A DNA stretch of 64,000 bases. It comes from an uncultured Christensenellaceae bacterium. Its GTDB lineage: Bacteria; Bacillota; Clostridia; Christensenellales; UBA3700. Of the stretch, positions 21,396 through 61,723 are shown piece by piece. The DNA is taken from the NCBI GenBank assembly GCA_944383905.1, contig CALWRI010000005.1:1-64000 (forward strand), written 5' to 3'. Below the pieces are notes generated by a model, which worked only from the letters and a program-made list of their open reading frames with translations, searched no databases and was not told the origin of the DNA. Within the stretch, counting starts at the first letter, position 1. Each line of letters opens with the position of its first letter. The translations under genes and the position numbers were made by a program.

Positions 21396-22125
21396 TCCTC
21401 ACGAAGATCACAGGGAGAGAATGCGCGCGAGAGTAAGAGAAAATTCTCTCGACTCGCTCAACGAACACGAAGTTCTCGAATATCTCCTTTATCCGTTTAT
21501 ACCGCGCAAGGATACAAACGGGATGGCGCACGATCTGATCGCGCGCTTCGGGTCACTTGCCGCCGTGCTCGACAGCGATTGCAACGCGCTTGCCGCAGTC
21601 AAAGGAATGACTGCCAACGCCGCGCTTTATCTCAGCAGTATGTCCTCTCTCGCGAGGCGTTACAATACCGGCAAAATAGGCGAAAAGCCAAAACTTGAGA
21701 CAAGAGAGCAGATACTTCAATATCTCAAAAGTTTTATGAGCACTCTCGAAGAGGAGAGGATTTACGCGATTTGCGTTGACAGTGCCGGCAGACTCAAGGA
21801 GCGTTGCGAGCTGGGAAAAGGCAGCAGTGACGACTGCAAGTTGCGAGTCAAGGAACTTGTGATGCTGTGCCAGAATTCGCAGACGAAATACGTTTATCTT
21901 GCGCACAATCACCCGTCCGGCATAGCAAAGCCTTCGCAGGAAGACGTCGATTTTACGAAGTGGGCGGTCACGGCGTGCGAGATAATGGACGTGCTTCTCA
22001 TCGACCACATAATAATCGCAAAGGACGGTCATTACAGTTTTCTGCAGGACGGCAAGCTGGACGAATTCCGCAAGTCGTATCTGAGATTTGTGGACGAGAG
22101 CAGGATCTCCGACAGGAGGCACTGA
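21379..22125 (+). CDS. radC: RadC-family JAB/MPN-domain protein
   Basis: About 248 aa. An N-terminal helix-hairpin-helix-like segment (HEVLEYLLYPFIPRKDTN, then KGMTANAA) leads to a JAB metalloprotease-like domain with the JAMM signature HNHPSG and a following Asp. RadC proteins are linked historically to DNA repair, but their biochemical role is unsettled. I choose GTG 21379, because AAGGA lies 8 nt before it. This overlaps the ATPase end by 17 bp. An in-frame TTG at 21337 would add 14 basic residues but has no ribosome-binding site. The stop overlaps the next start. Confidence 0.85.
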   Translation: MEKKINPHEDHRERMRARVRENSLDSLNEHEVLEYLLYPFIPRKDTNGMAHDLIARFGSLAAVLDSDCNALAAVKGMTANAALYLSSMSSLARRYNTGKIGEKPKLETREQILQYLKSFMSTLEEERIYAICVDSAGRLKERCELGKGSSDDCKLRVKELVMLCQNSQTKYVYLAHNHPSGIAKPSQEDVDFTKWAVTACEIMDVLLIDHIIIAKDGHYSFLQDGKLDEFRKSYLRFVDESRISDRRH

Positions 22126-22775
22126 TGGCTCCTCGCGTTTACCGCCTTTCGGCGGGAGATATTTCTTTTACGGTGATAAAAAAGGCGGTAAGAAACTGCA
22201 CCTTGCGCATTAAGGGCGGGGAGCTTGTCGTCACCGCTCCTTCGTCGATGAGCGACAGTCAGGTTATCCTTGCGGTGCAGAGACATACCCGCTGGGCGGA
22301 AAAGCATCTCGCGAGGGCGGAACAGGCGAAAGGTAAGGTGTTTTTGCTCGGGCAGGCTTACGATTTGAAGGAGGAGTATGCGGCGAGGGGCGGCGTTGTC
22401 TTTGCGGACGGAATCTGCGTTCTGAAAGGCAAGGACGACAAGCACCGTGAAAAAGCGCTTCTCGACAATTACAAGAAGACGATGAAGGAAACGCTTCCCG
22501 CGCTGTTCGACAAGTGGCAGAAGGAGACGGGACTTCGCGCGTCCGAAATCGTCGTCACATCGGCAAAATCCTATCTGGGCAGATGCGAGATCGCAGACCG
22601 CAGGATAAAGATAAGTTGCAGGCTCGCCCGAAAATCTCCCGACGTGATAGAATACGTCGTTCTGCACGAGCTGTGTCATCTGAAAATAAGCGGTCATCAA
22701 AAGAATTTTTACGCGCTCGTATCAAAATATATGCCCGATTACAAGGTCAGGATAAAGAAGATGAAAGCGGAGTAG
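22125..22775 (+). CDS. YgjP-like metal-dependent hydrolase (M48/DUF45)
   Basis: 216 aa. The zinc-peptidase motif HELCH (181-185) with His191 six residues later matches the YgjP/WLM (DUF45) metallopeptidase group. Upstream basic beta-strands (NCTLRIK, ELVVTAPS) are typical of that family. No signal peptide or membrane helix is present, so it is cytosolic. The physiological substrate of the family is not well established. ATG 22125 shares a base with the radC stop and is preceded by GACAGGAGG. The reading frame is open further upstream, but that part lies in radC and is not used. Confidence 0.87.
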   Translation: MAPRVYRLSAGDISFTVIKKAVRNCTLRIKGGELVVTAPSSMSDSQVILAVQRHTRWAEKHLARAEQAKGKVFLLGQAYDLKEEYAARGGVVFADGICVLKGKDDKHREKALLDNYKKTMKETLPALFDKWQKETGLRASEIVVTSAKSYLGRCEIADRRIKISCRLARKSPDVIEYVVLHELCHLKISGHQKNFYALVSKYMPDYKVRIKKMKAE

Positions 22776-22875: not shown

Positions 22876-22967
22876 TTATCCACACATATAAATGATATTG
22901 CCTACGTTGTTTTTTTGACGAAGTTATCCACAAGAACGGATGTTTTTGTGGATAGGTCTGTGGATAA
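22876..22967. promoter_or_regulatory. cluster of four DnaA-box-like sequences
   Basis: TTATCCACA occurs at 22876-22884 and 22924-22932 on the + strand and at 22967-22959 on the - strand. A one-mismatch copy, CTATCCACA, lies at 22955-22947 (-). That is four 9-mers in 92 bp, three of them exact matches to the bacterial DnaA-box consensus. The two central boxes form a 13-bp imperfect inverted repeat (22925-22937 and 22942-22954, loop GGAT, one mismatch). An AT-rich stretch lies at 22885-22920. No dnaA, dnaN or recF gene is in the window, so this may be a DnaA titration or regulatory site rather than the origin. Confidence 0.65.
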
Positions 22968-23037
22968 CTCTGCCTTTTCAAAGGTTTTCGCAAAAAAATG
23001 CGCGTTTGCGACATTTTTTGCATTCGGAGAAAACGAT

Positions 23038-23724
23038 ATGATTTTTATAGGAAAAAAAACATTACTTTGCTCTCTTGCGGCGCTTCTCGTCACGGCGTTT
23101 GCTTTCTTCGGAGCGGCAACCGTCGTCGACGACGTTGCGCACTCCTATCCGCCTCTCGGAGCCGTTGTCGTCATAGACGCAGGTCACGGCGGAATGGACG
23201 GAGGCGTCGTCGGCGTAAACGGTACGAGGGAGAGCGAGCTAAACCTCGAGATAGCCCTCCTTCTCGGAGAGATACTGACGGCGCGCGGCGTTGCGGTAGT
23301 ATATACGCGTACGAGTGACGACGCGTTGTCCGACATAAAGCGGGAGGACATGAATATGCGCGCCGAAATAATAAGGGACAGTCGCCCCGATTGTGTGATA
23401 AGTATACATCTAAACAGCTATCCGCGCGACGCTTCGCGCCGCGGCGTGCAGGTGTTTTACGACGATACGGGCAGGGGCGGGGCGTTTGCCGCTCTTATGC
23501 AGGAGAGACTCAACGCGACGGTAAATTACAGGTACAGCAAGAGGACGGATCTCGCGCCGCAGTCGGGCGACTTTTTCATCACGAAATGCGCTTCCGTTCC
23601 TTCGATAATAATAGAATGCGGATTTTTGTCCAACGAACAGGACGAAAAACTGCTCAAAACGCAGGCGTTCCGCAAGGAACTTTGCAAAGAGATTGCAGAA
23701 ACCGTTATATTCGCGGTTTCATGA
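23038..23724 (+). CDS. N-acetylmuramoyl-L-alanine amidase (CwlD-like)
   Basis: 228 aa. It cleaves the bond between muramic acid and L-alanine in peptidoglycan. An N-terminal hydrophobic segment (about 8-28) exports or anchors it. The amidase_3 domain has VVIDAGHGGMDGG (zinc His50), the Glu in GTRESELN, SIHLNSY (second His) and the catalytic Glu in IIIECGFLSN. Length and layout match sporulation-type CwlD. I start at ATG 23038, which follows GGAGA; the open frame upstream runs through the DnaA-box cluster and has no ribosome-binding site. A hairpin lies at the stop. Confidence 0.9.
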   Translation: MIFIGKKTLLCSLAALLVTAFAFFGAATVVDDVAHSYPPLGAVVVIDAGHGGMDGGVVGVNGTRESELNLEIALLLGEILTARGVAVVYTRTSDDALSDIKREDMNMRAEIIRDSRPDCVISIHLNSYPRDASRRGVQVFYDDTGRGGAFAALMQERLNATVNYRYSKRTDLAPQSGDFFITKCASVPSIIIECGFLSNEQDEKLLKTQAFRKELCKEIAETVIFAVS

Positions 23725-30376: not shown

Positions 30377-30460
30377 GACTTTTCTCCTCTTTTAAATTTA
30401 TTTTCCAAAACTCCGTTTATGTTGGCGCAACGTATGATATACGACTTGTTTTACATAAAT

Positions 30461-30489
30461 ATTATACAATTGCGGATAAATCGTGTCAA
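30461..30489 (-). promoter_or_regulatory. consensus promoter of the LRR gene
   Basis: On the - strand, perfect TTGACA (30489-30484) and perfect TATAAT (30466-30461), 17 nt apart. The leader to ATG 30376 is about 79 nt, with AGGAG just before the start. Confidence 0.8.
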
Positions 30490-30672
30490 TACGGCAGTTT
30501 CGGCGACGACTGTGCCGGAATTGTACAAAAACCTTCAGGGACAGACTAAAAGAGAAAAAGATACGACGACGGTCGGACTGCAATTCAACGGTTTTTCGCT
30601 CCCTACAAGGTGACGAAAAGAGTCGAAAAATCACTATTTTGCTCGCAAACTGAAAATACCGCAAAAAAAGCG

Positions 30673-39464: not shown

Positions 39465-39496
39465 AATAAAAGCCTTTTACAAATGTGGATATATAT

Positions 39497-39525
39497 ATTA
39501 TAAAATAAATATAATGACTTGTCAA
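39497..39525 (-). promoter_or_regulatory. consensus promoter of the Gx-rnfCDGEAB operon
   Basis: On the - strand, perfect TTGACA (39525-39520) and perfect TATAAT (39502-39497), 17 nt apart. The leader to ATG 39464 is about 25 nt. No other promoter of this quality is seen inside the operon. Confidence 0.85.
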
Positions 39526-39691
39526 TTTTGCTTGAAAAAAGTCGTTTTATCAACATTTTTTTAACAAACTTGCCTTTCCGCGGTAAAACAGGGTGTTTTT
39601 TTGCGGTTTCGGAGCGCGACAAACCAAAAAAAGAATGTTTTTATCCCGAAAGACCGTGTCGGGCACAAAAAATCCTTATTATACGAAGGAT

Positions 39692-41928: not shown

Positions 41929-42078
41929 AATTACCTCCGTGAGATGAGTATTGACCGAAACGGTGATATTATTCAAAACCAAAGACATCAAAGGAGCTTT
42001 TTGCAGAAAGGCAAGCTGCGTTTTCAATATTGATTGCAAATTTATCAAAAACATAGGCACTAAAAAACTCATTTTGCT

Positions 42079-42120
42079 TTATTATGCATAATAACTGTTT
42101 TCAGGTCAAAAGACCTGAAA
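42079..42120 (-). promoter_or_regulatory. rubrerythrin promoter with two nested palindromes
   Basis: On the - strand, TTGACC (42109-42104) and CATAAT (42086-42081), 17 nt apart. A perfect 16-bp palindrome, TTATTATGCATAATAA (42079-42094), covers the -10. A perfect 9-4-9 inverted repeat (42099-42107 and 42112-42120, arms TTTCAGGTC and GACCTGAAA) covers the -35. The first resembles AT-rich PerR/Fur-type boxes. The leader to ATG 41928 is about 145 nt. Confidence 0.6.
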
Positions 42121-61598: not shown

Positions 61599-61642
61599 AT
61601 GCCCCCGGTTTTTGCAAAATCGGGGGCATATTGTATTATTTT
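61599..61642 (+). terminator. terminator of the DegV gene
   Basis: Perfect 9-bp stem ATGCCCCCG (61599-61607) and CGGGGGCAT (61621-61629), then a T-rich stretch. Confidence 0.75.
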
Positions 61643-61723
61643 GCAAAGCGGTGTAGAAAAACAGTTGATTAGACGCGCGATTTATTGCAAAATAGAAGCA
61701 ATAAAACGTACGGGGGAAAACAG

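Follow-up and report, generated by a model that had tools for sequence, protein, structure and literature searches.

A single-copy trio of DnaA boxes with a DARS-like layout, often upstream of a cwlD-type amidase gene in Christensenellales

In Escherichia coli, the DARS loci share a core of three DnaA boxes in which box I is opposed to boxes II and III (PMC5742627), and they promote the release of ADP by means of DnaA molecules that sit head-to-head on boxes I and II (PMC8682772, PMC5742627). In vivo, DnaA of the same species prefers tandem boxes spaced 2-3 bp from each other (PMC11317965). Bacillus subtilis carries six clusters of DnaA boxes outside oriC that restrain initiation (PMC13220808), with 4-11 sites each, at sda, ywlC, ywcI, yydA, trmE, and gcp (PMC4447404). 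These clusters bind DnaA and delay initiation, and some of them are promoters (Okumura et al. 2012, as summarized in PMC13220808); at the promoter level, DnaA of this species is an activator of sda and a repressor of other genes (PMC4447404). According to a 2026 review, B. subtilis has neither datA nor DARS, and whether it keeps ADP-DnaA and ATP-DnaA in balance is not known; the species also lacks IHF (PMC13220808). In Clostridioides difficile, the intergenic region between rnpA/rpmH and dnaA is oriC1 (PMC7561715).

The locus described here lies in a stretch of 64,000 nucleotides (hereafter the window), which is C5:1-64000 of an assembly of 1.69 Mb in 31 contigs (G000). An earlier note on this DNA had reported four DnaA-box-like sites, two per strand, and all of them are found. 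The inverted repeat that it attributed to the middle pair of boxes spans 13 bp, 12 of which match in the DNA (arms TATCCACAAgAAC at 22925-22937 and GTTtTTGTGGATA at 22942-22954). The features of the locus are as follows.

22122-22775, plus strand: gene for a YgjP-like metallopeptidase (PF01863), the upstream neighbour, which varies between genera
22876-22884, plus strand: fourth DnaA box, TTATCCACA, 48 bp upstream of box I and confined to most of the genus
22883-22896, plus strand: promoter-like stretch CACATATAAATGAT (family form CACATATACATAAT), a putative function read from its sequence
22924-22967, plus strand: core module, i.e. box I, 14 bp, box II, 3 bp, box III, in single copy and with invariant spacing in 29 of 35 family genomes
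22924-22932, plus strand: DnaA box I, TTATCCACA, TTWTCCACA in nearly all relatives
22934-22945, no strand: second palindrome, within the spacer between boxes I and II, GAAC-N4-GTTT (family form RAAY-N4-GTTY)
22947-22955, minus strand: DnaA box II, CTATCCACA, which is TTATCCACA in most relatives in the box-anchored comparison
22959-22967, minus strand: DnaA box III, TTATCCACA, forming a tandem "double DnaA box" with box II across a gap of 3 bp
22968-23037, plus strand: AT-rich leader from box III to the amidase start
23038-23724, plus strand: gene for a CwlD-type N-acetylmuramoyl-L-alanine amidase (Amidase_3; PF01520, 3.1e-41)

DnaA boxes as such are not enriched in this genome, since exact TTATNCACA occurs 35 times in the whole 1.69-Mb assembly versus 30 times for the reversed control pattern. 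Three exact boxes within 92 bp are found at this place only in the whole assembly. Markov shuffles of the window give at most 2-3 boxes per cluster (one mismatch or fewer, 92 bp), versus four in the real sequence, and none of 100 window shuffles reaches the trio geometry at three mismatches or fewer, whereas the real trio has one mismatch. Further four-box clusters appear in the window once a single mismatch is tolerated (30401-30522, 39475-39558, 41969-42083, and 61610-61652), so the signal resides in the exact boxes and their geometry and not in loose density. These loose clusters are what speaks for a chance grouping with no function, a reading of negligible probability that we count as refuted because the geometry is conserved across the family and the order while control matches are zero. 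Another non-origin locus of the same assembly (C16:28004-28044) has three direct DnaA boxes, one of them TTTTCCACA, within 41 bp.

When upstream regions are aligned by anchoring on the boxes, what is conserved is box I(+) followed by 14 bp, then box II(-), a further 3 bp, and box III(-), with invariant spacing and diverging flanks. A pattern search of 59 genomes recovers it in single copy in each of 31, and the reversed control gives 0. These 31 comprise 29 of the 35 genomes of the family and two from other families (G042 and G049), both with the module upstream of cwlD. The same density at many loci had been named as an outcome that would count against a special role; the module occurs once per genome. 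Among 26 distinct sequences, 24 of the 44 module columns are invariant, and apart from box positions they include a spacer palindrome, AA-N5-GTT (columns A12, A13, G19, T20, and T21). This spacer palindrome, RAAY-N4-GTTY in its family form, does not vary within the family and is also present in a genome of another family (G079). Upstream of the module, the CACATATAAATGAT stretch is conserved across most of the family, and at the position of the fourth box other genera have a TTCGACACA-like sequence.

Transcribed into RNA, boxes I and II could form a stem of 13 bp, and the spacer holds the extra conserved palindrome; both features would suit an RNA element (hairpin, attenuator, or terminator) or, for the spacer, the site of another protein. 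We find that covariation of the I-II stem does not exceed that of shuffled columns (60 of 500 and 157 of 500 shuffles reach the observed values), and that the I-II pairs are mismatched in many species while each half is still a DnaA box. Box III is outside the stem and is conserved to an equal degree. Given the lack of covariation beyond shuffles and the position of box III, the RNA hairpin is dismissed and the module is read as DNA, which leaves a role as RNA or as another protein's site improbable.

The earlier note had also raised an origin of replication in an unusual setting, which the GC skew contradicts. The skew stays positive along the whole 64 kb of the window. In the same genome it flips on a separate contig, C8, at the dnaA-dnaN-parB-rnpA region, and that contig carries recF, dnaA, dnaN, parB, mnmG, mnmE, jag, yidC, and rnpA. 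G012 has amidase and dnaA on one contig; there, the skew minimum is at 369 kb beside dnaA, the module (170 kb) shows no skew sign change, and it lies about 185-200 kb from the dnaA-dnaN-parB-rnpA region. The skew of the window, of G012, and of contig C8 therefore rules out the site as oriC. A replication origin, or half of a bipartite one, displaced from dnaA could draw on the AT-rich flank of the boxes and on the similar trios that many Clostridia have between rpmH and dnaA (oriC1); with the sole-origin form refuted by the constant skew sign at the site in the window and in G012, we regard it as very improbable. The origin region itself is reorganised in these two genomes (G000 C8:17859-35775 and G012 C2:355-376 kb), with recF-dnaA-dnaN in a row and parB to rnpA on the opposite side. 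Further arrays of DnaA boxes are found beyond rnpA (G012 C2:355108-355406 and G000 C8:39284-39819), and these may be the true oriC.

The gene downstream of the module has spore_cwlD (TIGR02883) as its best NCBIfam match, at 147.6 bits, although this is below the curated cut-off of 221.55 for that equivalog. Its closest matches in the species collection come from MAGs that bear the labels Christensenellaceae and Candidatus Ornithoclostridium. The finding of both Spo0A and SpoIVA makes sporulation probable for the lineage, and SpoIVA in 49 of 59 genomes points to an order in which most members sporulate. The module is upstream of a CwlD-type amidase in 27 of the 29 family genomes that carry it. 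Trios at four mismatches or fewer also precede cwlD in 11 of the 19 other families sampled and in G257 of family f28, mostly in the same orientation; in shuffled upstream regions (n = 600) the trio never falls below five mismatches. The array is linked to cwlD across many families. Upstream neighbours differ by genus (YgjP, GH20, a WYL regulator, SpoIIE-like, and rpsR; names partly from reading sequences) and downstream neighbours vary too, so no single gene explains the module. A search of the literature for DnaA together with cwlD returned nothing relevant.

These observations speak for an alternative of lower but appreciable probability, that the module serves the cwlD promoter above all, as an operator responding to DnaA, and would couple the replication state to cortex or wall remodelling in sporulation, in the manner of sda; copies without cwlD would then serve the next gene or be relics. 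The strongest point in its favor is that the place before cwlD persists while the upstream genes change. It also gains from the position upstream of cwlD in the 27 family genomes, from the trios in other families, from the largely sporulating order, and from the precedent of B. subtilis DnaA, which activates sda and represses other genes (PMC4447404). Against it, the module is flipped relative to cwlD in G168. Cases in which the amidase is kept and the boxes are lost, the other outcome the earlier note would have taken as adverse, are seen only in genus g5, where cwlD remains and the module is degraded, and in a few outer families; several families have no good module near cwlD.

The strongest objection to this operator as the only role comes from genomes in which module and cwlD have parted. 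G022 (98% complete) has neither Amidase_3/cwlD nor SpoIVA and yet keeps the module, which directly precedes the genes found downstream of cwlD in the congener G017 (47-73% identical at the protein level). G031 also lacks cwlD and SpoIVA and keeps the module, on a contig that ends 89 bp past it. In G359 and G350, cwlD is on another contig and is box-free, while the module stays beside a WYL gene; between these two genomes the module is identical at 44 of 44 bp, the flanks at 77-79%, and the neighbouring proteins at 83-85%. If the array were simply a cwlD promoter, it should be missing where cwlD is absent or elsewhere, and in these four genomes it is present. The module is therefore under selection that cwlD does not explain, and an array kept without an adjoining cwlD cannot serve cwlD only. 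Of the earlier idea of a DnaA-controlled amidase promoter, the position upstream of cwlD in many families stands, while retention where cwlD is lost or elsewhere contradicts a sole cwlD operator. Within genus g6, four genomes (G022, G026, G029, and G031) are without SpoIVA and cwlD while their congener G017 has both, an apparent loss of sporulation within the genus.

Beyond the family, the distance between boxes I and II is confined to a few values. Across the order (396 genomes, gaps of 3-20 bp allowed) only 3, 4, 5, 13, and 14 bp are found, and across the class (391 genomes, 2-24 bp allowed) 2, 3, 13, and 16 bp and one case of 23 bp; reversed controls are 0 in both. The gap groups in Clostridia are about one helical turn apart, and such phasing is what protein-protein contacts across the spacer would be expected to need. 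Almost all class-wide trios with a gap of 2-3 bp stand between rnpA/rpmH and dnaA, and they do so in many families, which marks the trio as a general DnaA module of Clostridia. In families whose dnaA locus is conventional, the trio tends to be at dnaA instead of cwlD. The present trio occupies a non-origin locus. Two genomes show further arrangements, i.e. a palindromic double trio just ahead of a recG-like gene (G107), and two trio loci, neither at cwlD nor at dnaA in the stretches examined (G227).

The interpretation that we favor, with roughly even confidence, is that of a dedicated non-origin DnaA-pool locus, acting by titration and/or DARS-like reactivation, with a possible side effect on cwlD. 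Genome comparison speaks for it through the single copy, the fixed geometry, selection that persists without cwlD, and the location away from oriC, and the genome encodes DnaA with an oriC region of its own. Two points count against it: the position before cwlD in about 12 other families of the order with changing upstream genes fits control of cwlD in cis better than a purely trans role, and genus g5 and several families have no good module near cwlD. A dual role, in the DnaA pool and at cwlD, is quite possible.

We infer occupancy by DnaA, an action in trans, and whatever nucleotide exchange there may be, in the following form. A DnaA dimer would sit on the tandem boxes II and III, which are predicted to be occupied given the in vivo preference for tandem boxes in E. 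coli, with an opposed protomer on box I. At 14 bp, the spacer exceeds that of E. coli DARS by about one helical turn and would place box I on nearly the same face of the DNA. The complex would act mainly on DnaA itself, by sequestration, by stimulating the release of ADP in the manner of DARS, or by both, and its effect on the DnaA pool would help to set the timing of initiation. Where lineages sporulate, transcription of the downstream cwlD is probably influenced by this complex as well.

A narrower proposal, that this is a DARS-type DnaA-reactivating locus of Clostridia in which DnaA opposed on boxes I and II(-III) releases ADP, we consider unlikely, if considerably less so than an origin; the gap 2-3 bp trios upstream of dnaA suggest that the geometry is that of a general DnaA module and so no proof of DARS. 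If true, it would give Bacillota a control of DnaA nucleotide exchange thought confined to E. coli and its relatives. The module, in single copy, with the layout of a DARS core and persistent after loss of the neighbouring gene, offers a concrete 44-bp sequence with which the question of ADP-/ATP-DnaA balance in Bacillota can be tested. Its ancestral position before a sporulation amidase also suggests a possible direct link from replication state to spore-wall enzymes.

Among the known systems, datA is likewise a non-origin cluster of DnaA boxes and regulates initiation. It differs in needing IHF and in geometry, i.e. when E. coli MG1655 loci are scanned with the same script, oriC, datA, and the dnaA promoter have no trio at three mismatches or fewer, and the datA region has none at five or fewer. 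The sda promoter also has DnaA boxes upstream of a sporulation-related gene, but the gene and the box arrangement are different, and regulation has been demonstrated for sda. Clostridia oriC1 shares the I(+) II(-) III(-) trio with a II-III gap of 3 bp; there, the I-II gap is mostly 2-3 bp and the trio is beside dnaA and the origin, whereas here its place is next to cwlD and away from the point where the skew changes sign.

The B. subtilis clusters are likewise dedicated groups of DnaA boxes that lie outside oriC in a member of the Bacillota, and the present locus, with several boxes clustered outside oriC, belongs with clusters of this type. Those clusters are at other loci, none at cwlD, and the accounts consulted (PMC13220808, PMC4447404) do not describe a fixed 14/3 trio. 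The titration cluster suggested earlier is therefore supported in kind, as a dedicated non-oriC cluster with a rigid geometry like that of the DARS core, and titration itself would be its predicted activity.

The closest layout is that of E. coli DARS1 (boxes at 813107+, 813121-, and 813133-) and DARS2 (2969135+, 2969149-, and 2969161-), both I(+) II(-) III(-) with gaps of 5 and 3 bp. A second trio, with a gap of 15 bp and two mismatches, is found inside the DARS2 region (NC_000913.3 2969441). In Clostridia, gaps of 4 and 3 bp (G021, with a degenerate box III) and of 5 and 3 bp (G344) also occur. The present locus differs from DARS1 and DARS2 in its I-II gap (14 bp versus 5), so that the gaps are 14 and 3 bp and not the identical 5 and 3, in its near-consensus boxes (versus one-mismatch boxes in E. 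coli), and in its phylum, where the same trio is also used near dnaA. Because the spacing is not identical and any DARS activity is putative, our claim is limited to a locus that would work like a DnaA-pool locus with a DARS-like layout, and not one that is a DARS. The likeness comprises three boxes with box I opposed to II and III, a II-III gap of 3 bp in both, and an intergenic location away from oriC, between oriC and the terminus.
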